This document shows, piece by piece, positions 20,986-33,031 of a DNA stretch of 46,893 bases. Positions within the stretch are counted from its first letter, which is position 1. Every line of letters begins with the position of its first letter. The notes beneath the pieces were generated by a model. It was not told the DNA's origin. It made no database searches and saw only the letters and a list, made by a program, of their open reading frames with translations. This stretch comes from Synergistota bacterium (lineage in GTDB: Bacteria > Synergistota > GBS-1), in contig JAGHDO010000038.1 of the NCBI GenBank assembly GCA_021159885.1, positions 1 to 46,893 of the forward strand, given 5' to 3'. Both the position numbers and the translations under genes were made by a program.

Positions 20986-22113
20986 ATGTTTCCACTAAAG
21001 GTTGATCTTATAAGAAAGCTTGATAAACTGCCCGTTGATATCAAGGAAGTCATGCTTAGCCTTATGGAGTATTTTGAGGTTCTTTCTAAGGATATGGTCA
21101 GAAAGGAGGATTTTAGCAGGCTTGAGGCTATAGTTGGGAAGCTTGCGGAAGCTCAGCTTAATAGTGGAGAGCGTCTGAGCAAACTTGGGGAAGCTGTCAA
21201 TGGTTTGATCGAATCTCATAAGAAAGCAGAAGCTCGTTTGACTCATCTTGAGGAAGCTATAGATAGGCTAACTGAGGCGCAGCGTGAGAGTGAGGTTCGT
21301 TTAAGCAAGCTTGAGGAGACGGTTGGTGCATTGATTGAAGCGCAGCGTAGAAGCGAGGCTCGTCTGGATAGGCTTGAGGAAGCAATAGGCAGGCTAACTG
21401 AGGCTCAGCGTGAGACTGAGCGGAGGTTGAGTGAGTTAGCGGAGGCGCAGGCTAAGGCGGAGGAGCGTTTGAGCAGGCTTGAGGAGGCTATAGGTAAGCT
21501 GACTGAAGCCCAACGCAAGAGCGAGGCACGTTTGAGCAAGCTTGAGGAGACGGTTAGCGCGTTGATTGAAGCGCAGCGTAAAAGTGAGGCTCGCTTGGAC
21601 AAACTTGAGGAGGCAATAGGTAGGCTAACTGAGGCTCAGCGTGAAAGCGAGCAAAAGATCAGTGAGTTGGCGGAAGCGCAAAGGAAAACAGAGCAAGAGA
21701 TAGAGAAGCTCTCTCGCGGTCTTAGGAACCTTAGAGAAGAGGTTGGCGGTCTCGCGAGGAGCTTTTCATATGCTCTTGAAAACGAAGCTTATAGAAGGCT
21801 CCCTGACTATCTGAGGGAGAAATATGGCATAGAGGTTTTGGATAGAATAATACGATTTGATCTTAACGGAGATGAGATAAATCTTTTCACCCGAGCTAAG
21901 GTGAATGGTGAGGAGGTCTTGCTTGTTGGTGAGTCGGTTGTTAAATTTGCGCATGCGCGGGAAATCAAGCTTTTAGAGAGAAAAATGGAGAAGATAAGAA
22001 AGGCATATGGGAAAAAGGTCATTGGAATAATAGTGACTCACTTTGCCAAGACAGGACTTAAGGAGAAGGCGGAGGACCAAGGGCTTATAGTGGTTCAAAG
22101 CTTTGAGTGGTGA
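20986..22113 (+). CDS. Long coiled-coil protein with DUF3782/PD-(D/E)XK nuclease-like C-terminus
   Basis: A 375-aa soluble protein. Residues about 40-245 are a heptad coiled coil made of 21-residue units of the type RLxxLEEAIGRLTEAQRxSEA; two copies of a 77-residue block start at about residues 105 and 182. Residues about 250-375 are globular, with YALENEAYRRLPDYL, DEINLFTRAKVNGEEVLLVGES and KKVIGIIVTHFAKTG. The strand order resembles the DUF3782 / restriction-like nuclease fold, but the usual (D/E)xK is here GES followed by Lys320, so catalysis is doubtful. Such proteins are frequent in archaea and thermophiles and their function is not known. Confidence 0.72.
   Translation: MFPLKVDLIRKLDKLPVDIKEVMLSLMEYFEVLSKDMVRKEDFSRLEAIVGKLAEAQLNSGERLSKLGEAVNGLIESHKKAEARLTHLEEAIDRLTEAQRESEVRLSKLEETVGALIEAQRRSEARLDRLEEAIGRLTEAQRETERRLSELAEAQAKAEERLSRLEEAIGKLTEAQRKSEARLSKLEETVSALIEAQRKSEARLDKLEEAIGRLTEAQRESEQKISELAEAQRKTEQEIEKLSRGLRNLREEVGGLARSFSYALENEAYRRLPDYLREKYGIEVLDRIIRFDLNGDEINLFTRAKVNGEEVLLVGESVVKFAHAREIKLLERKMEKIRKAYGKKVIGIIVTHFAKTGLKEKAEDQGLIVVQSFEW
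21298..21681 (+). repeat. Tandem 231-bp intragenic duplication encoding 77-residue coiled-coil blocks
   Basis: Inside the coiled-coil gene, the block beginning RLSKLEETVGALIEAQ (from 21298) recurs 231 bases later as RLSKLEETVSALIEAQ (from 21529), each followed by an RLDxLEEAIGRLTEAQ unit and a SELAEAQ unit. Unit spacing is 21, 21, 21 then 14 residues in each block, exactly 11 heptads. The nucleotide sequences also stay similar, suggesting fairly recent duplication. Copy 2 runs out near 21681. Confidence 0.75.
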
Positions 22114-22732: not shown

Positions 22733-24346
22733 TTACTTTATTATCTTTATCCTTCCGTCGGTCTTCGGGGAGATTTTCCCTCCGAGATGCTTTATATAAT
22801 CCCTCATTATGTCAGGTAGAGTAACCGTGGTGTTATATCCTTTGTATTTCTTAAATATAAAGTACTTATCTCCGCCTTGAGCAAGCCAGCTATTGGTAAT
22901 AACTTTGTATGTAGCTTCGGGGTCTAATGGCATCCATTTTCCATTCTTTAATACCTCGATGCTTTTCACTCTGCTTCCCCATTTGCTTATCCTTCTCCCG
23001 GTGAAAATGGTAGGGGGTTTACTAAGGTCATAAACCACTCTTATCCCGGAAATCTGAAGGAATCCACCAGTAGGTGTCCTTTTCGCAGGATCGTAGTTTT
23101 TGTCGACCAAAGCTGAAGCAGATATTTCAAGGAGTTTCAAAATGTCCTTTCCCTTCATCCTGAATATCACTGCGGTGTTTCCAAAGGGATGAATGGATAT
23201 CAGGGTTTTATAGGATATGGGACCTGCGGGGTAGATCCTGTCTCCCCTTATGCCACCGCCATTTGTTATAGCTATATCTCCATTGAACCTCCATCTCATT
23301 GCATCTGCCAGAAAATCACCAAGGTTGCTCTCCCTACTCCTCACCGTTGATTTTCTAGCGTCTAAGTCCACAGTGCTCACACCGATCTTCTCTGAAAGCC
23401 TTTTTTCCAAGCCCTTAACATAAGGTGCCAAGAAAGCGTTGAGTTCCTTGTCTTCTCCTACGGTTTTATCGAGCAATATGACTTCCCATTTGATTTTTTC
23501 TATTATAGCTTCGCCATCCTTAACCGGCATGTATAACCTTCCGGCATATTTAAGTCTGGCTCCTGCCTGAATTATCACCGTTTTCCAACCGCCTGGTCCA
23601 TTCACTATGTAAGGTTTCTTCGTGAGATCGTGGCTATGGCCCCCGCAGATAAGGGTTATTCCTCTTACTCTCTTGGCAAGCTTTATATCTTCGCTTAAGC
23701 CTATGTGGGTCAAGGCTATTATGACATCAGCTCCCGCTTTTTTGAGAGTGGATACGGCGTTTCTGGCCACCTCAACTAAGTTCTTATTTACCTTTATGGC
23801 ATCTCCTGCGTTTGATATATAAGGTAGATCTGGCGTTATAAGTCCAAAGAAGCCTACTTTCAATCCTCCGAAATTCTTGATTAAATATTTTCTTATTTTA
23901 CCGAGGAGGAAAGGGTCATTTATCTCTATGTTGGTGCAAACTACTGGAAACTTTGCATATTTTAAAGCTTTAGCGTAAATATTGGGGCCTAAGTCAAACT
24001 CGTGGTTTCCTGGAACTGCGGCGTCATAACCAGCTAAGCTCATGCCGAGGTATTCAGGCTTTCCATGATAGTAATAATATAGTGGTCCCATAAGGTCATC
24101 TCCGCCAGAGACGACTATCACGCTGTTGCCGTATAGAGCTCTCGTCGCCTTTATCGCAGTTGCGACTCTACTTAAACCACCTACCATTAGCTTATGTCCG
24201 CCAATTCTCGCCTTAAATGGGGTTATCGCACTCTGCATATCATTTGTCTCTATGACGACCAGGGTTCCTGATTTAGCTATTGCTATACCTGTCAAAGCAG
24301 ATAGGACTATGCTTAATCCCAGAATTACCGCCAGCAGCTTTCTCAT
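22733..24346 (-). CDS. Exported 5'-nucleotidase / metallophosphoesterase (UshA-like)
   Basis: A 537-aa protein with a signal peptide (about 1-24). The N-terminal metallophosphoesterase domain shows SGGDDLMG, GNHEFD (113-118), LTHIG and GGHSHD; the C-terminal nucleotide-binding domain shows ESNLGDFLADAMRW, NGGGIR and SIHPFGN. These are the UshA/5'-nucleotidase family marks, so it probably removes phosphate from nucleotides or related esters outside the inner membrane. Odd point: the first metal motif, normally D-x-H, reads D36-M-Q38. It is the last gene of a six-gene operon and overlaps the acidic protein gene by ATGA. Confidence 0.88.
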   Translation of the reverse strand: MRKLLAVILGLSIVLSALTGIAIAKSGTLVVIETNDMQSAITPFKARIGGHKLMVGGLSRVATAIKATRALYGNSVIVVSGGDDLMGPLYYYYHGKPEYLGMSLAGYDAAVPGNHEFDLGPNIYAKALKYAKFPVVCTNIEINDPFLLGKIRKYLIKNFGGLKVGFFGLITPDLPYISNAGDAIKVNKNLVEVARNAVSTLKKAGADVIIALTHIGLSEDIKLAKRVRGITLICGGHSHDLTKKPYIVNGPGGWKTVIIQAGARLKYAGRLYMPVKDGEAIIEKIKWEVILLDKTVGEDKELNAFLAPYVKGLEKRLSEKIGVSTVDLDARKSTVRSRESNLGDFLADAMRWRFNGDIAITNGGGIRGDRIYPAGPISYKTLISIHPFGNTAVIFRMKGKDILKLLEISASALVDKNYDPAKRTPTGGFLQISGIRVVYDLSKPPTIFTGRRISKWGSRVKSIEVLKNGKWMPLDPEATYKVITNSWLAQGGDKYFIFKKYKGYNTTVTLPDIMRDYIKHLGGKISPKTDGRIKIIK

Positions 24347-24540
24347 GAATCATCACCTCCATCTTCCTCGTCTTCCTCTTCGTCGAGCTCCTCCCCGAGC
24401 TCCCTTAGCTTTGAGAGGAGATCCAACGATGTTATAAACGATGATAGCAGTTCTCTCCTTACAATATCGTTATCTATCTCTATGCTGTCTTCATCTTTAC
24501 CTCTGTATAAGGTTAATATATAGCTTGATGGTTTTATCAT
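24343..24540 (-). CDS. Small acidic-tailed protein of unknown function
   Basis: A 65-aa protein with a beta-like N-terminus (SYILTLYRGKDEDS), an amphipathic middle helix (REllSSFITSLDLLSKLRE region, about 28-48) and a C-terminal tail in which about 12 of the last 16 residues are Asp or Glu. No known family recognised. It is tied on both sides by 4-base ATGA overlaps to the AAA+ ATPase gene before and the 5'-nucleotidase gene after it, which strongly suggests a real product and coupled translation. It might be an adaptor, inhibitor or substrate of the ATPase; this is a guess. Confidence 0.7.
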   Translation of the reverse strand: MIKPSSYILTLYRGKDEDSIEIDNDIVRRELLSSFITSLDLLSKLRELGEELDEEEDEEDGGDDS

Positions 24541-25946
24541 CTCGCTTCACCCCCAAGCTCCCTTATTATCACTGAGCTCATTCCCTTTATCGCCTTTGGT
24601 GTTATCTTTTTAAGCTTCTTTGATAGAAGTATCAGGATGAGTCTCTCCATAGAGTTTTCTAACCCATTTAGGGTATATCCTCCTTCCACCATTTGCTTTT
24701 TCCTAACTGCATCCACTATAAACTCGACGATTTCCTTGTCCTTAAGCGGTTCGAGCATCTTCCTATAGCCAGGCTTCATTCTCGAGATTACCTTGGGAAG
24801 TACGTATTCTGATAGTATGATAACAAGATCGTTCAGCTCAAACGGTGGGACCTCGTATATATCAGCCATCTTTGAGAATGCAGGATGATCCAAACGCTTA
24901 TTTAGCTTATTACCCAGAAGGAACACGGGAGCTTTGCCGAGAAGAAGCCTCGTTCCTGTGTATCTGTCTCTCATCTCTTGTCTGAGATAAGGATCTACTA
25001 TGTGGAAGAGGAATTTTTCTGCTTTATGATTAGCGGTTTCTATATCATCAAACAGCATGCATGGATTTATAACACCGCAGGAAACAACACCCTTTAGCAT
25101 CAGGCCAGCATCTTCTTGGGTTCCAAAAAGGTCCTCTAATACTGCTGGCGATAGGGAGATGGAAAAGAAAGGCCAATCAAGTGCCGTTAGAAGCGAGCTT
25201 ATAAGGGTGCTTTTTCCAGTGCCTGTGGGTCCCACAAGAACGATAGCTTTGCTAATTTCCTCAAAGGCGTTGAGTCTGAAGAATATAAACTTAGCGATCT
25301 TCTCCCTTTGAGGCGTGAGCAAAATCCTCTTTCTCATAAGAGCGAGAACGCTGTCTATATCTCTCTCCGGCAGAAATTCTGTGAGATATGGATAAGATAG
25401 AATATATCTATTTCGAGGATGCTTAAGCTCGAAATCCGTTTCTTCGAAGAAAAGATTGTCCAGCGGAGATGCTCTTTTTATCACCTCGACCGCTTCTGGA
25501 TCTGCCAGCGTTAGAAATTCCAGGAGCCTTACCATTTCTCCGGCTGGCAGTCTTAGGAAGGGATCAAGTTTAATTTCGCGGGAAATTAGCCTCTTTAAGA
25601 TTATGCTTCTGTATGGATGATATCTCAGGATTAAGTAAAGCAGAAATATTTTTTCTCCCTCTACCATGTGTACTATTGCATCGTCCTCTTCATCGAGGAT
25701 CTCATCCAGTTCTTCCTCCGAAAAAACATAGCTTATAAGCGGAAAGACATCCGATGGGGAGATTTCTCCTCCAAGTTCTTCTTTAAGCTCTTCAATATAT
25801 CTCGTTATTCTCTTGTAGGAACCCTCGTTGAGGAAGGGAATCTCTTTAAGCTCTTCCTTCACTTTCTCCAGTGGCTCTCTGGCGTCTGGATAGACACTAT
25901 ATATGTATTTCTCCGTTTCTATACCAGCTTTTATGAAATCAAGCAC
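24537..25946 (-). CDS. AAA+ ATPase with Lon-like module, no protease domain
   Basis: A 469-aa cytoplasmic protein starting at GTG 25946 with GGAGG upstream. An N-terminal all-helical acidic region (about 1-210) has no family I recognise; it includes EEELDEILDEEDD. The AAA+ core follows: Walker A GPTGTGKS (239-246), Walker B CMLFDDIE (296-303), then RYTGTRLL and the sensor-1 strand VFLLGNKLNK (Asn346). The spacing and the GVVSCGVINP-x-x-LFDD stretch recall the Lon AAA module, but the chain ends about 120 residues after sensor 1, with no Ser-Lys protease domain. Substrate unknown. It sits between a class II aldolase gene and a small acidic protein gene. Confidence 0.75.
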   Translation of the reverse strand: MLDFIKAGIETEKYIYSVYPDAREPLEKVKEELKEIPFLNEGSYKRITRYIEELKEELGGEISPSDVFPLISYVFSEEELDEILDEEDDAIVHMVEGEKIFLLYLILRYHPYRSIILKRLISREIKLDPFLRLPAGEMVRLLEFLTLADPEAVEVIKRASPLDNLFFEETDFELKHPRNRYILSYPYLTEFLPERDIDSVLALMRKRILLTPQREKIAKFIFFRLNAFEEISKAIVLVGPTGTGKSTLISSLLTALDWPFFSISLSPAVLEDLFGTQEDAGLMLKGVVSCGVINPCMLFDDIETANHKAEKFLFHIVDPYLRQEMRDRYTGTRLLLGKAPVFLLGNKLNKRLDHPAFSKMADIYEVPPFELNDLVIILSEYVLPKVISRMKPGYRKMLEPLKDKEIVEFIVDAVRKKQMVEGGYTLNGLENSMERLILILLSKKLKKITPKAIKGMSSVIIRELGGEAR

Positions 25947-25964: not shown

Positions 25965-26573
25965 TTACCATGTTTTAAGCGTCTTTGGTAGAAATTTTTC
26001 GAGACTTTCGCCCGCTTGCAGCAGGTATAGTGCTATCTTTGCTGAATTCTCAAGCGAGCTACAATAGAAAAATGCTTCTTCTAAGGTTTCCGCTGCGGAA
26101 AAGGCGCCGTGCCCCCTTACCATGATTATCGGATAATCCTTGAGGTACTTAGGTATTTCTTTTGCCATTTCGGTCGACCCAGAGCCAAACTCGAAGGAAA
26201 GAACGGGAACCTTCTTAACATGATAAGCTCCTTCGACATCAACCGGTATTATCTCATCGAGGAGCATTGATAGCGCAGTTGCAGCTACGAGATGAGCGTG
26301 GACTATTGCTAATGCATCTGTGACTCTATAGATCTCTCTGTGAACATGTGATTCCGTAGAAGCTATCGCTATCATTCCGTCATCTTCGGTTAAATTGAGC
26401 TCCACGAGGTCATCTTCTTCGAGAAAGCCCAGCATTGATCCTCTTCTCGTTATTATCATTCTGTTTCCGACGCGCACGCTCATATTTCCGCTGTGGGAGT
26501 TCTGTAAACCAGCTACATACATTGCCCACCCTATTTTCTTAAATTCCGCTAAGCTTTTCTTGTCTATAGCCAC
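25965..26573 (-). CDS. Class II aldolase/adducin family protein (fuculose-phosphate aldolase type)
   Basis: A 202-aa zinc aldolase, GTG start at 26573. The catalytic Glu74 (ASTESHVH) and zinc ligands His92, His94 (VHAHL) and His155 (RGHGAFS) are all present, with SGNMSVR (27-33) for phosphate binding. Such enzymes split ketose-1-phosphates into DHAP and an aldehyde; L-fuculose-1-P, 5-deoxyribulose-1-P and methylthioribulose-1-P aldolases belong here, and the substrate cannot be chosen by eye. The gene overlaps the end of the AOR gene by 10 bases, so an aldolase releasing an aldehyde is translated together with an aldehyde-oxidising enzyme. Confidence 0.87.
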   Translation of the reverse strand: MAIDKKSLAEFKKIGWAMYVAGLQNSHSGNMSVRVGNRMIITRRGSMLGFLEEDDLVELNLTEDDGMIAIASTESHVHREIYRVTDALAIVHAHLVAATALSMLLDEIIPVDVEGAYHVKKVPVLSFEFGSGSTEMAKEIPKYLKDYPIIMVRGHGAFSAAETLEEAFFYCSSLENSAKIALYLLQAGESLEKFLPKTLKTW

Positions 26574-28324
26574 TTAGGCTCACCTTCTTTAAATAACTCT
26601 GCGATCTTTTCTTTTGCTGGTATGCCCTTTCGATCCCAACCCCTGTATTCATAATATTCCTGAAGCATTTCTTCAAGAGGAATACCCTTTTTTATTCTGT
26701 CTGGGAGAGTATCATCTTCGTGTGAAAAGCCAAGGCGCAAATTTATAAGCCTTTCAAGGTTGAAAATCCTTTCTCCTATCTTTTGAAGGTCAGAGGAAGT
26801 ATACTCAACTTCCTCTATAACACTTAGAGCTCTTGCCCAGTGGTGCAATGAGGTTGAAAGGAAAGCAAATCTACAGATTATGAGAGAGTCAGCTATAGCT
26901 CCAATGTCTTGTGCTCTTGCAACGTGTGCTCCCTTGCCAAGAGCCTGAAATCTGTTTATTCTTCTCGGCACACCGTATATCTCGAACGAGACGGAAAACC
27001 CCCCGCGTAGATGACACGCTCCTCTGTTCGAAGTCGCGTAGCCCAGTCCCATTCCCAAAGCTCCTCTGGGGTCATAAGCGGGGAGCTCCAGTCCCTTAAC
27101 ATGCATGGCGAATTCCCTTCCACCGGTAATTTCTGAGGCTTTCTTGACGCCGAGCGAAAGAATCTCACCGCGTTCCTTTCTGAACGCTATATCCTCAACG
27201 AGGCTTAATATTCCATTCGTATTGCCAAACTCAACCCCCAAATCGGCTATGCCTCTTTCCTTAAGCTCCATTGCAAATCCTATCACCGAGCCTAAGGATA
27301 TCGTGTCCACGCCGAGGAGGTTTGCCATTTCGTTTAGGGTTATGATAAACGGAAGATCATCTATCTCAAGGTTTGCTCCAAGCGCCCACAGAGTTTCAAA
27401 TTCAGGACCGCTGACTTTTCTTCCATTGAGTTCACATACTCTCTCGCACAGTACTGGACAGCCGAAGCAACCACTTCTGCTTTTTAGAAAGCCTTTCTTT
27501 AGTTTCTCTCCACCGATGGCTTCTGCATTTTTGAAAAATCCTTTCTGGAAGTTTCTCGTTCCCAAAGTCTTAAACGAGTTTATTACTCTCATGGTTCCTG
27601 CGGTTCCGAGAGATGGTAGTAGTTTTGATGTCAGAGGGTGTGTGGTTATAAGACGCATGATTTCATACCTGTAATCGCTAAGTTTCTCGGACCTTTGAGT
27701 TCTTTTCGTCTTTCTTCCGTGCACCGCTATCGCTTTAAGGTTTTTACTTCCGAAAACAGCACCGGCTCCTCCTCTTCCAAATGCTCTTTTACCATTTTCC
27801 ATAACGCAGGCAAATCTAACGGTGTTTTCTCCAGCGGGACCTATCGAAATCACGGAGAGACCCTTTCCGTGTTCTTCTTTGAGCTTTTCGCTTGTTTTAA
27901 GCGTGTCGCTTCCCCAAAGATTGCGAGCACTTCTTACCTCAATACTGCTTTCATCTATCAAAATATACACGGGTTCATGAGCTTTGCCTTCTATTATCAT
28001 AGCGTCATACCCTGCCCTTTTAAGTAAAGTTCCGAAAGTTCCTCCCACGTTTGAATCGAGTATTGTTCCCGTAAGAGGAGAGCGGGTTGTTAGGCTAACC
28101 CTGCCTGTCATAGGTAAGGGGGAGTCGGTCAATGGTCCCGTTGCGATAATTACCGGATTTTCCTCGCTTAGTGGATCGGGAGAATCATTTCCTATCCTTT
28201 CTGAGAAAAGATATGTTCCCAACCCTCTTCCGCCTATAAATCTTTCGCGGACATCCTTCTTTATCGGTATCTCTTCTATCTTCCCGCTTGACAGATTTAT
28301 GTATACAATTTTTCCTTCTTTCAT
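26564..28324 (-). CDS. aor: Tungsten-type aldehyde:ferredoxin oxidoreductase (AOR) 1
   Basis: A 586-aa oxidoreductase; ATG 28324 is chosen because GGAGGGACC stands directly before it (an in-frame ATG lies at 28345). Domain order is typical: N-terminal GGRGLGTYL, the tungstopterin-binding GRGGAGAVFGSKNLKAIAV (183-201), the [4Fe-4S] cysteines Cys286, Cys289 and Cys293 (CFGCPVLC), DPRGALGMGLGYATSNRGACH (about 418-437) and the final cluster ligand Cys484. It oxidises aldehydes to carboxylates with ferredoxin as acceptor, or the reverse. It is cytoplasmic and the second gene of a six-gene operon, overlapping an aldolase gene. Confidence 0.95.
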   Translation of the reverse strand: MKEGKIVYINLSSGKIEEIPIKKDVRERFIGGRGLGTYLFSERIGNDSPDPLSEENPVIIATGPLTDSPLPMTGRVSLTTRSPLTGTILDSNVGGTFGTLLKRAGYDAMIIEGKAHEPVYILIDESSIEVRSARNLWGSDTLKTSEKLKEEHGKGLSVISIGPAGENTVRFACVMENGKRAFGRGGAGAVFGSKNLKAIAVHGRKTKRTQRSEKLSDYRYEIMRLITTHPLTSKLLPSLGTAGTMRVINSFKTLGTRNFQKGFFKNAEAIGGEKLKKGFLKSRSGCFGCPVLCERVCELNGRKVSGPEFETLWALGANLEIDDLPFIITLNEMANLLGVDTISLGSVIGFAMELKERGIADLGVEFGNTNGILSLVEDIAFRKERGEILSLGVKKASEITGGREFAMHVKGLELPAYDPRGALGMGLGYATSNRGACHLRGGFSVSFEIYGVPRRINRFQALGKGAHVARAQDIGAIADSLIICRFAFLSTSLHHWARALSVIEEVEYTSSDLQKIGERIFNLERLINLRLGFSHEDDTLPDRIKKGIPLEEMLQEYYEYRGWDRKGIPAKEKIAELFKEGEPKWL

Positions 28325-28341
28325 GGTCCCTCCTTCCAATC

Positions 28342-29802
28342 TCATCTATATAAGATTTGAAAACGTGCGTGTGCGGGATCCTTTGTGGTAAAGAGTATCC
28401 CGCGCCACGGCGGGATGAGAAAAGAGAGCTTTCTGATATTATTTATGGTTTCTTTATCGGAGTTGAAGTTTTTTGCCAGGATAACGAATTTCGGAATAAG
28501 CTCTTTTAGCTCTTTCAGGCTTAGGTAGGCCCATGGAGAAGCTGGCTCTCCGATTTCTTCACATATATCCGGTGGAAGAACCATTCGGAAGTCCAGATCG
28601 CTTGGGGGTATTAAACCGAGAATTAGCTCCTTTCCTCTCACTCCAAGTGTGAGATCTACTGGCATCACCGCGCTGTAAAAAAGATCCCAGCCCACCTTTC
28701 TTTCTTCTTTAAAAAATCCACCGTTTTTAGCTCTCTTCATAACGGAACCCATCGCTCGCTTCAAGAAAGCTTTAAGTTCGTTCTGGTTCATTTCGCTTAG
28801 ATAATAGGCGTATATTCCGGTGAAGTTGGTCCCTAATATATTGGCATTTCCTCCCACCACGAGATAAAGCTTTCCGGTTAGGAACTTACTGAGTTCATTC
28901 TCGTTTGTGGATAAAGCTTTGTAAAGTTTGTCTATTTCTCCCTTTTTCCTCTTGGGGAGGGTGTTTTTGATTGTTGATATTATCTTATCGCCAGAGACTG
29001 GTACGGCTCCCATAAGAATAATTTTCCCCTTTCCAGGGGGAGAGATGGGGGGTAGCTTACCCTCGCAGACCAGATTTTTAAGTCCCTCACGGGGTTCTAT
29101 TGCACGCAGGTCAAAAATGAATCTTGTCTTTTCATCTCTTCCTTTTCCTTCCAAGATCGAGATCTTTCTCGGTGTTAGCTTGTTCCTCATCCTTAAGTAG
29201 AGGTATACCTGGGGCTTTTTATGAGCTGGAATGAGCCCCTTAAGTCCTCTTGGAGCTTTTGTTTTCCATATGAAGCGTAGTCCGAGCCTAAGTGGATCCA
29301 CTATATTATAAAGAGCTTTTTCATTGTTGCTCAGCATAACATAATCGTTGCCGAAATATGCGTATATCTTTTTATCCTCCATGTCGATGCGATATATCCT
29401 TTTGACTTTTTGAAGCTTCACCCCGGATGCTTTAATTATCTGTAAGGCATTACCGTGTGTTTTTATAATGATAAAAAAGTCTGGCTTGGGGTTTATTTTC
29501 TTTCGAAAGTAGATTGCGCAGGACGCCTCTTTTACGTTTCTGTTTATCATCATCGCTGCGGTTTTAACGTTTTTGAGCTCCTTTTGGGAGAGGTTTCCTA
29601 CGTTAATGGCAAGGTTTTTAAACCAGTTGCCATTTAATATGTTAGTGATTATAGAAACATCGTTTATCTCGAAATATAGTAAGTTCTTTTCGTTTGTTGA
29701 AATAGGAAGAGCGCTTAAGGGGTCTACTTCAAAAGCCCATGAGATATTAATAACCATTAAGATGATAACTCCCGCTACCAAAATTGGTAAGGATCTTTTC
29801 AT
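28342..29802 (-). CDS. Exported protein of unknown function (DUF3352-like)
   Basis: A 486-aa protein with a signal peptide (about 1-23, ending SWA) and no other membrane segment. The rest alternates beta strands and helices, with LLYFEINDVSIITNIL near the N-terminus and a second similar half (KGKIILMGAVPVSG, then LSKFLTGKLYLVVGG). That pattern resembles DUF3352-type two-lobe secreted proteins, but I would not insist on the family. It is the first gene of the AOR/aldolase/AAA+/nucleotidase operon, with a GGAGGT ribosome site and a promoter at 29828-29836. Function unknown. Confidence 0.7.
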   Translation of the reverse strand: MKRSLPILVAGVIILMVINISWAFEVDPLSALPISTNEKNLLYFEINDVSIITNILNGNWFKNLAINVGNLSQKELKNVKTAAMMINRNVKEASCAIYFRKKINPKPDFFIIIKTHGNALQIIKASGVKLQKVKRIYRIDMEDKKIYAYFGNDYVMLSNNEKALYNIVDPLRLGLRFIWKTKAPRGLKGLIPAHKKPQVYLYLRMRNKLTPRKISILEGKGRDEKTRFIFDLRAIEPREGLKNLVCEGKLPPISPPGKGKIILMGAVPVSGDKIISTIKNTLPKRKKGEIDKLYKALSTNENELSKFLTGKLYLVVGGNANILGTNFTGIYAYYLSEMNQNELKAFLKRAMGSVMKRAKNGGFFKEERKVGWDLFYSAVMPVDLTLGVRGKELILGLIPPSDLDFRMVLPPDICEEIGEPASPWAYLSLKELKELIPKFVILAKNFNSDKETINNIRKLSFLIPPWRGILFTTKDPAHARFQILYR

Positions 29803-30344: not shown

Positions 30345-30699
30345 GGGGGCGAATGGTTTCGACGGCACATGGGCGTGCGCGGAGAGCGAGCCGAGGTCCC
30401 GTAACCTCGTAAAACAACGGGGCGAAAGAATAAATGCCGATTACGGTTATGCAATGGCTGCTTAATTAAAGCGGCCCATCCTCTCAGCCTGACGCCGCTA
30501 AGGCTGGGAGGGTGAAAGGGGAAGCGGCTTTTCTCCAGAGGGTTGCCCCGCCTTCTGGAGAGAAAACAATTGGGGCTTTTCGGTAAGGGATCCTGCCCCT
30601 GGGAGACCTTGCCGAGAAAGTAAAAACAGGGGCTACGCTCGTAGGCGCTCCGGCATTATCATGTGTCGGACGCGGGTTCGAATCCCGCCGCCTCCACCA
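30345..30699 (+). ncRNA. ssrA: Transfer-messenger RNA (tmRNA, ssrA)
   Basis: One-piece tmRNA of 355 bases. The 5' GGGGGCG (30345-30351) pairs with CGCCTCC near the 3' end (7 bp with one wobble), followed by ACCA (30696-30699, encoded). The tRNA-like half contains GGTTCGAATCC. The tag frame reads NADYGYAMAA and stops at TAA 30463-30465; the resume codon is probably AAT 30433, but an upstream codon is possible. The CCTCGTAAAA segment before the tag matches other tmRNAs. A T-run (30700-30705) follows the gene. Works with SmpB encoded just upstream to free stalled ribosomes and tag the nascent protein for degradation. Confidence 0.96.
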
Positions 30700-30718
30700 T
30701 TTTTTCTTCTGTGCTGAC

Positions 30719-31201
30719 ATGATTTCTCAAGCTTATCTTAGGGTTCTCTATAAGCTATATGGGAGGCTAAACAATAGTGATGTGAACTGGGTTATTACGG
30801 GGAGCTTTGGTTTTGCTCTTCAGGGCGTTCCCATTAATCCTCGTGATATTGACATTCAAACTGATAAAGAGGGGGCTTATAAAATCGAACGTCTCTTTTC
30901 TGAGTTTGTAGCTAGTCCTGTTCGGTTTTCCTCGGCGGAGAACATTCGCTCCTATTTCGGAGTCCTTGTGATTGACGGGATTAAGGTTGAGATAATGGGG
31001 GATATTCAGAAGAGGGTTGATGATAGATGGGAACCTCCAGTAGACATAAGCAAATATAAGCGTCTTGTAGATGTTGAGGGTATGAAAATCCCAGTTTTAG
31101 ATCTGGAGTACGAGTATCAAGCTTATCTTAAGCTGGGGAGGGTTGAAAGGGCGAGAATGGTGAGGAATTTTTTGGATGGGAAAGGGGAAGAGAGGATTTA
31201 A
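30719..31201 (+). CDS. Nucleotidyltransferase-fold protein
   Basis: A 160-aa protein with minimal polymerase-beta-type nucleotidyltransferase motifs: WVITGSFGFALQG (helix-loop with GS), RDIDIQ (the DxD metal pair) and VEIMGD (third acidic residue). It resembles antitoxin/AbiEii-like or lincosamide-type transferases, but no HEPN partner gene is next to it; instead it abuts the second AOR gene with no gap. No Shine-Dalgarno is seen before ATG 30719 and no own promoter was found, so it may depend on read-through from ssrA. Substrate unknown. Confidence 0.7.
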   Translation: MISQAYLRVLYKLYGRLNNSDVNWVITGSFGFALQGVPINPRDIDIQTDKEGAYKIERLFSEFVASPVRFSSAENIRSYFGVLVIDGIKVEIMGDIQKRVDDRWEPPVDISKYKRLVDVEGMKIPVLDLEYEYQAYLKLGRVERARMVRNFLDGKGEERI

Positions 31202-33031
31202 ATGCATGGCTACGGGGGTAAAATTTTATTCATTGATCTAAGCCGCCGGAAGCTTCAGGAAGAGCCAACGAGCTCTTATCTTGGAACTCTGGGTGGTAGG
31301 GGACTGGGACAGAGGCTTCTTTTTGATCTTTCCTCTCCCTCTATTGATCCCCTCGATGAGGAAAGCGTCATAATCTTGAGTGCGGGAGCGCTTTCCGGTA
31401 CTTCTATGCCCGCGGTTTCGAGACTCTCCGTTGATTTTAAGAACGCGTTAAACTGTGGGGTTGGTTCAGCTAACGTTGGTGGGAGCTTTTCCTCTATGAT
31501 GAAATATGCTGGATACGATGCTATAGTTATAACTGGCAAGGCGGGTTCTCCCATTTATATCTATGTAGATGAGAACGGTGCTTACATTAGGGATGCTTCT
31601 TCTATTTGGGGAATGGATACATGGAACGCTGATTTAACCATAAGAAGGCTTGAAAGCAATGATTCTTTGAGTACGGCGCTTATAGGACCTGCGGGGGAGA
31701 ATCTCGTTAAATTTTCATGTTTGATTGTGGATAGAGGGCGGGCTGCCGGTTATGGTGGAGCTGGGGCGGTCTTTGGCAGCAAGAATTTAAAGGGGATCGC
31801 GGTTAGCGGTTCGAAGCCAATATCGGTTTATGATCCCTCGATATTGAGGAGCGTGGTTAAGCGTCTCTATACCGCCTTTAGAAATAGCGAGGTAGCCAGG
31901 ATTCACTCTGAAGGGGGAACTTTTAAGGCTTATCTTTTGCCTGGGGAAAAAAGACCCCATGGTGTTAGGAATATGTCGGATGAGTTTTATCCAAATGAAA
32001 AGCTTTCTCGTATAAAAAGAGAGCGGTTTGATAAAGAGTTTCTCGTTAAGAGGCTCTCTTGCTTCTCCTGTCCGGTTCGCTGTAGCGCTCTTTACAGGAT
32101 AGATGGTAAGTACTGCGAGGGAATACAGGCTAATATGGTGAGAGCTTTTGGAACGAATCTTGATATCCTTGATCCTCCAACGATCCTGAGGGCTAACCTT
32201 ATGGTTAACTCCTATGGACTTGACTGCGACCAAACTTCCTCTATCATAGCTTGGGCGATAGAGTGCTTTGAGCATGGAATCATAGATGTTGGCGATACCG
32301 GTGGGCTTGAGCTTAGATGGGGAAGAGGAGATGCTATTTTAAAGCTCATAGACATGATAACTCATAAAGAAGGTTTTGGAGCTGTCCTCGCTGATGGACT
32401 TTACGAAGCTGTTAAGAAAATTGGCAGAGGCTCTGAAAGATATGCCATGCTCGTTAAAAAGGTGGGATTGATGGAAGCGGGGATGAGATCTCACAAAGGT
32501 TGGGCTCTTGGAATAATAACCAGCACCAAGGGGTGCGGGCACACGAGAGGAGCTCCTGCCCTTGAGTTCAGAAGGATTTCTCCCGATATCTCGAGAAAGG
32601 TTTTGGGAATAGGAGACATAAGCGATCCCACTTCCTATGACAACAAGCCGGAACTCGTCGTCTGGCAGGAAAGATACAAAGCCATCATAGATTCGATGGG
32701 AATATGTAGCTTAATGAGTATGTGGCAAGATGTGAATCTATATCGCTTGGAGGATATATCTGAGGCCTATCGTGCATTAACAGGAATAAGTTTTTCTCCG
32801 GATGAGCTTATGGATTTTGGTGAAAGCTTGCAGACCCTTGAGAGAAAATTCAATGGCATTCATGCACATTTCGACAGAAAAGATGATTATCCACCTTTAA
32901 AGCTCGTTGATATTCCAGTGAGCGAAGGCGTATATAAGGGAGAGAGGCTTAACCTTGTCGAATGGGATAAGATGCTGAATAGATATTATGAGCTTCATCG
33001 CTGGAATTGCGAGGATGGATTGCCTTCTTAA
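31202..33031 (+). CDS. Tungsten-type aldehyde:ferredoxin oxidoreductase (AOR) 2
   Basis: A 609-aa AOR-family enzyme starting at ATG 31202 directly after the previous stop. GGRGLGQRLL is at 31-40, the pterin motif YGGAGAVFGSKNLKGIAV at 184-201, and Cys287, Cys290 and Cys294 (CFSCPVRC) bind the [4Fe-4S] cluster, with a late GICSLM Cys as fourth ligand. It is clearly diverged from AOR 1 (different substrate channel segments, for example MEAGMRSHKGWALGIITSTKG in place of the DPRGALGMGLGYATSNRG block). Neither AOR has a companion ferredoxin or AorA-type iron-sulfur gene beside it. Substrate is not known. Confidence 0.93.
   Translation: MHGYGGKILFIDLSRRKLQEEPTSSYLGTLGGRGLGQRLLFDLSSPSIDPLDEESVIILSAGALSGTSMPAVSRLSVDFKNALNCGVGSANVGGSFSSMMKYAGYDAIVITGKAGSPIYIYVDENGAYIRDASSIWGMDTWNADLTIRRLESNDSLSTALIGPAGENLVKFSCLIVDRGRAAGYGGAGAVFGSKNLKGIAVSGSKPISVYDPSILRSVVKRLYTAFRNSEVARIHSEGGTFKAYLLPGEKRPHGVRNMSDEFYPNEKLSRIKRERFDKEFLVKRLSCFSCPVRCSALYRIDGKYCEGIQANMVRAFGTNLDILDPPTILRANLMVNSYGLDCDQTSSIIAWAIECFEHGIIDVGDTGGLELRWGRGDAILKLIDMITHKEGFGAVLADGLYEAVKKIGRGSERYAMLVKKVGLMEAGMRSHKGWALGIITSTKGCGHTRGAPALEFRRISPDISRKVLGIGDISDPTSYDNKPELVVWQERYKAIIDSMGICSLMSMWQDVNLYRLEDISEAYRALTGISFSPDELMDFGESLQTLERKFNGIHAHFDRKDDYPPLKLVDIPVSEGVYKGERLNLVEWDKMLNRYYELHRWNCEDGLPS

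Follow-up and report, generated by a model that had tools for sequence, protein, structure and literature searches.

A Lon-type AAA+ protein without a protease domain and with degenerate motor residues, encoded together with an overlapping small gene in one bacterial family

In a 46,893-nucleotide stretch of DNA from a Synergistota bacterium (contig JAGHDO010000038.1, positions 1 to 46,893; hereafter the window) we identified a gene for an AAA+ protein which profile and alignment comparisons show to be descended from, or sister to, the AAA module of Lon. The same alignment shows that the motor residues of this protein are degenerate, the pore-loop 1 aromatic, the Walker B Glu, the sensor-1 Asn and the Arg finger all being lost. 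The explanation we favour, tentatively, is that it may act as a Lon-derived, nucleotide-binding, non-translocating scaffold or assembly factor for its gene cluster, with the product of the next gene, a small protein, as its partner. We infer this role with far less certainty than the degeneration, which is read from the aligned columns. The two genes and the parts of the AAA+ protein (AAA protein below) are as follows.

24537 to 25946, minus strand: gene, with a GTG start, for the protease-less Lon-type AAA+ protein of 469 residues (open reading frame, family and profile matches, alignment)
25401 to 25946, minus strand: its N-terminal region, residues 1–182, matching no family, with helices predicted at low confidence
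24540 to 25400, minus strand: its Lon-homologous AAA module, residues 183–469 (183–390 by profile, the remainder by multiple alignment)
24343 to 24540, minus strand: gene for a 65-residue protein, with residues 1–40 conserved and a variable acidic tail, in ATGA overlap with the AAA gene

The coordinates of both reading frames and their ATGA coupling, four bases at 24537–24540, agree with the original prediction, as does the assignment to a Lon-like AAA+ protein without a Ser-Lys protease. By sequence, Lon is the top family: NCBIfam model TIGR00763 matches at 6e-08 (31.6 bits, against a whole-protein cut-off of 608 bits) and the next family at 0.005. A profile search of the PDB recovered Lon chains at 1.1e-08, and hhalign against Lon proteins of the phylum gave 97.7% over residues 183–390. 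The likeness to LonA protease (endopeptidase La) is thus best over these residues; the multiple alignment extends the match through the whole of the AAA lid, with the elements in the same order throughout. Beyond the last AAA glycine only 4–5 residues follow, compared with 192–208 in 30 Lon proteins, leaving no protease domain. Nor was the Lon N-terminal domain detected, residues 1–205 and 1–180 each scoring 0.1% probability against the Lon alignment (hhalign); residues 1–179 matched no Pfam family. The AAA protein therefore differs from LonA in lacking the protease domain, a detectable Lon N-terminal domain, the pore loop and most catalytic residues. A Lon-sized match, a 792-residue frame, is also present in the home genome (1.77 Mb, 93 contigs).

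Structure prediction from the four available sequences returned a mean pLDDT of 42.6 and a fold that weakly resembles those of Lon, HslU and ClpX (with Foldseek, E 1.1e-04 at best and TM 0.34 and 0.29; with VIA-align, HslU at Z 9.3 and rmsd 5.0, Lon at Z 9.2 and rmsd 5.5). Beyond this weak resemblance we give the predicted folds no evidential weight; residues 1–177 were barely probed by them, and folds other than those listed are possible.

The state of the motor was scored on 30 distinct Lon frames of the phylum and four orthologues (the window protein and three relatives described below), without selection on Walker motifs. The Lon frames represent 30 of 33 loci, L006, L007 and L029 being excluded as duplicates or for lack of a match. 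The contig of one orthologue starts past Walker A, so that Walker A is counted on three. We take the names of the motor positions in Lon (pore-loop 1, sensors, Arg finger) as commonly used, the columns themselves coming from the alignment. In the window these positions are:

25209 to 25232, minus strand: Walker A, GPTGTGKS, residues 239–246 (alignment)
25107 to 25112, minus strand: site, beside residues 279–280, of a missing six-residue stretch that bears the pore-loop 1 Tyr in Lon (alignment)
25038 to 25061, minus strand: Walker B-like CMLFDDIE, residues 296–303 (alignment)
24906 to 24908, minus strand: Lys347, at the Lon sensor-1 Asn position (alignment)
24867 to 24869, minus strand: Met360, at the Lon Arg-finger position (alignment; Asn, Asn and Ser in the other three)
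24654 to 24656, minus strand: Asn431, at the Lon sensor-2 Arg position (alignment; Arg, Arg and Lys in the other three)

Walker A was found where it had been predicted, and its Lys is kept in 30/30 Lon frames and in all three orthologues covering the site. The pore-loop 1 Tyr, also present in 30/30 Lon frames, falls in a six-residue deletion in each of the four orthologues. Both acidic Walker B residues are invariant in Lon (30/30); in the orthologues the Asp column reads D/E/E/E and the Glu is replaced by Asp (4/4), giving DD in the window and ED in the other three against DE in every Lon. The Walker B originally predicted was thus correctly placed, its form not being the canonical one. Sensor 1 had been assigned to Asn346, which does not hold up: the column of the Lon Asn (30/30) corresponds to Lys347 and holds Lys in every orthologue; residue 346 varies (N/T/S/T). 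The Arg finger, again 30/30 in Lon, is lost in all four (M/N/N/S), with a Lys one or two residues before it, and the sensor-2 Arg (30/30) reads N/R/R/K. Since the alignment of the AAA protein with Lon is only about 20–25% identical, the sensor 1 and sensor 2 columns may be off by one. Among the orthologues the AAA core is strongly conserved, with invariant stretches of its own that include SCGVINP and DIET.

The small gene follows the AAA gene in the same manner wherever the latter occurs. In each of the four genomes it overlaps the end of the AAA gene (by ATGA, GTGA, a 7-base overlap and ATGA), and a profile built from the four small proteins, run against 185 genomes of the phylum, recovered the same four genomes, always adjoining the AAA gene. 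Neither gene was found without the other, so that the co-occurrence of the pair (4/185 genomes, never apart) and the conservation of the 65-residue frame in relatives (4/4 family genomes) both bear out the pairing originally proposed. The small proteins are 65, 54, 52 and 57 residues long and share sixteen invariant columns, fifteen of them within residues 1–40. The acidic tail noted originally does exist in the window, where it takes up 12 of the final 16 residues, and is weaker in the relatives (6, 4 and 9 of 16); it is the least conserved part of the protein. The predicted fold of the small protein has a mean pLDDT of 69.4 and a pTM of 0.36. Neither protein is named by any of the family libraries searched (Pfam, NCBIfam and defence-system models, the last giving weak P-loop matches only), in keeping with the earlier view that the pair matches no recognised system. 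Our literature search found no title on the AAA protein, which does not prove its absence from print.

Orthologues of the AAA protein were found, among 61 genomes searched, in only three other genomes, all of the same family, with 54%, 54% and 59% identity, the last being a fragment at a contig end. All other matches in these genomes were weak, confined to the AAA part and mostly within frames of about 770–930 residues. A profile search of the 185 phylum genomes at E up to 1e-10 gave 11 genomes, namely the four family members and seven weak matches (1.1e-12 to 9.7e-11) in frames of 779–834 residues, the size of Lon. The relatives include bacterium GBS-1 (LEKQ01000002.1; G001) and bacterium 42_11 (LGFB01000088.1; G003). 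NCBI places GBS-1 among unclassified Bacteria; we take it to belong to Synergistota in GTDB. In wider genome contigs a single-protein search returned no relatives outside the family and an alignment search returned two loci, both within it. Viral contigs yielded no relatives of the AAA protein, and plasmids and phages yielded two and one partial matches, none reaching 80% coverage; these contig scans rely on exact short patterns and may miss distant relatives in other phyla. As far as the searches reach, the pair is restricted to one small bacterial family.

Within this family both genes evolve as coding sequences under purifying selection. Their frames are open in 4/4 genomes from three genera (locus L005 covers only the last 211 residues of the AAA protein). 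Synonymous differences per site amount to 0.70–0.82 in the AAA gene and 0.65–0.91 in the small gene, compared with non-synonymous values of 0.13–0.30 and 0.09–0.36, ratios that are only rough because synonymous sites are near saturation. In the small gene, loci L003 and L005 differ at 8, 4 and 19 first, second and third codon positions, a coding pattern.

In the window the pair stands at the end of a run of five genes on one strand, separated by overlaps or short gaps. Upstream of it lie:

28342 to 29802, minus strand: first gene of the conserved cluster, for a 486-residue protein of no family with a signal-like N-terminus (by eye)
26564 to 28345, minus strand: aldehyde ferredoxin oxidoreductase (AOR; family match)
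25965 to 26573, minus strand: class II aldolase/adducin-fold protein (family match)

The order of the five genes is the same in all three genomes whose contig reaches that far (the window, G002 and GBS-1), with the pair at the cluster end in each; the 42_11 contig begins within the AAA gene, leaving its upstream part unseen. Identities of the G002 and GBS-1 proteins to those of the window are 66–69% for the AOR, 73–75% for the aldolase, 53–54% for the AAA protein, 45–46% for the small protein and 30–31% for the 486-residue protein. At about 30% identity, the first gene of the cluster thus changes far more quickly than the genes for the AOR and the aldolase (66–75%). At E up to 1e-20 the cluster aldolase occurs in 3 of the 185 phylum genomes, again the window, G002 and GBS-1. 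The cluster AOR, searched in the 61 genomes, is 69% identical in G002 and 68% in GBS-1 and elsewhere at most 44–47%. Since class II aldolases can liberate an aldehyde and AORs are able to oxidise aldehydes, the five-gene cluster may plausibly handle such a compound. The home genome holds seven AOR matches, the cluster AOR and six more, one of which is a short fragment.

Several neighbouring features were recorded alongside. Downstream, a 5'-nucleotidase gene (22733–24346, minus strand) overlaps the small gene by ATGA in the window; we considered it as part of the unit and dropped it, as the other three genomes have a DJ-1/PfpI gene at that place. A second AOR (31202–33031, plus strand) directly follows a gene with a match to the aminoglycoside-2''-adenylyltransferase (nucleotidyltransferase) family (30719–31201, plus strand). 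An open reading frame at 30484–30720 (minus strand), reading RRRDSNPRPTHDNAGAPTS, overlaps a tmRNA (30345–30699) on the opposite strand and is presumably of the well-known kind of spurious frame seen on tmRNA genes. The presence of the tmRNA marks the stretch as bacterial. At 20986–22113 (plus strand) lies a gene for a 375-residue protein of repeated coiled-coil units, one stretch of which weakly matches DUF3782 (E 0.023).

What such a protein might do can be judged against the losses described above. Were it an active AAA+ unfoldase or remodeller, it would have to work with an Asp in place of the Walker B Glu and with the neighbouring Lys as its finger, the small protein serving as a substrate adaptor. 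AAA+ adaptors are often small, Walker A is kept, sensor 2 is Arg or Lys in three of four orthologues and the core is strongly conserved; yet deletion of the pore-loop 1 Tyr and replacement of the Walker B Glu, sensor-1 Asn and Arg finger, each in 4/4, make this unlikely. The absence of the pore-loop 1 aromatic and of most catalytic residues makes an active translocating pore in particular unlikely, and with it goes the original suggestion that the acidic tail of the small protein could feed or plug an AAA+ pore. The pair is conserved and overlapping in 4/4 genomes, and some acidic residues do end all four small proteins, but with 4 to 12 acidic residues among the last 16, in the least conserved part of the protein, and the pore loop missing, we regard that suggestion as very improbable.

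Loss of motor features with retention of the P-loop, in a pair at the end of a conserved cluster, would also suit a nucleotide-sensing switch that controls how strongly the aldehyde cluster is expressed or how active it is, with the small protein as a co-regulator. Initiator- or STAND-like AAA+ proteins are switches of this kind. No recognised DNA-binding or sensor domain is seen in residues 1–182, however, and we consider such a regulator rather improbable. Finally, the lost motifs and the confinement to one family might be read as a Lon duplicate in functionless decay. The open frames in four genomes of three genera, the invariant stretches of its own, the conserved overlap with the next gene and non-synonymous change far below synonymous all speak against this; the last indicates a selected protein and not a dying gene, and the substitution pattern largely refutes decay, which we hold to be extremely unlikely.

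Our favoured reading, a non-motor scaffold or assembly factor, accommodates the Walker A Lys kept in 3/3, the four motor positions lost in 4/4 and a chain that stops at the AAA boundary. The purifying selection on the pair and the strongly conserved AAA core also fit it. Given the loss of the protease, the pore aromatic, the Walker B Glu, the sensor-1 Asn and the Arg finger, the protein would most likely bind ATP or ADP yet lack efficient hydrolysis, as LonC does, and would not be expected to thread polypeptides. A role in the cluster is suggested by the pair being always together in 4/185 genomes and by the five-gene order in 3/3. The protein would then probably serve the operon products, above all the AOR, as a scaffold or assembly chaperone that responds to nucleotide, with its helical N-terminal region as a putative docking part; conserved gene order and overlap point to the coupled 52–65-residue protein as a candidate obligate partner. 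Against a non-motor scaffold stands the sensor-2 Arg or Lys retained in 3/4. Moreover, slow hydrolysis could be possible with the Asp that replaces the Walker B Glu, and the Lys near the lost Arg finger might stand in for it. Against help to the AOR stands the presence of six other AOR matches in this genome, for which no need of such a helper is known. The most specific form of the proposal, in which a Lon-derived AAA+ ring without protease and motor would be a nucleotide-gated maturation chaperone for a tungsten-type AOR, with an undescribed 52–65-residue partner, we regard as doubtful.

Two known systems offer parallels. MoxR-type chaperones such as CoxD and NorQ form another AAA+ clade than Lon. 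Both are reported to be AAA+ proteins serving assembly of an enzyme's metal cluster, CoxD hydrolysing ATP (PMC3471820) and NorQ working with a VWA protein (PMC9976466), and their likeness to the present case lies in a AAA+ gene beside genes for redox metalloenzymes. The analogy with CoxD is loose because CoxD hydrolyses ATP. MoxR is absent by name among the 23 Pfam families and 25 of 44 NCBIfam families listed for the searches, the nine proteins scanned with Pfam gave no VWA match, and NorQ appears weakly in the Foldseek search of the predicted AAA fold. The other parallel is LonC. MtaLonC is reported to lack ATPase activity, although each hexamer binds six nucleotides, and its AAA-like region, like the AAA protein, lacks the Walker B Glu, the sensor residues and the Arg finger (PMC3391209). 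LonC is an active protease with only a Walker A-like motif, whereas the AAA protein has an intact Walker A and no protease (PMC3391209). The two are roughly mirror images, likened by description and not by sequence; none of the 24 PDB matches to the AAA profile was recognisable by name as LonC.

Confinement to one small bacterial family, as far as the searches reach, limits the wider reach of the finding. LonC has dropped the motor and kept the protease; the AAA protein would be the reverse, having dropped the protease and almost the whole motor, its nucleotide site staying under selection. If the AAA protein serves the neighbouring AOR, it would add a new class to the helpers of such metalloenzymes and would show a path from AAA+ machine to scaffold.
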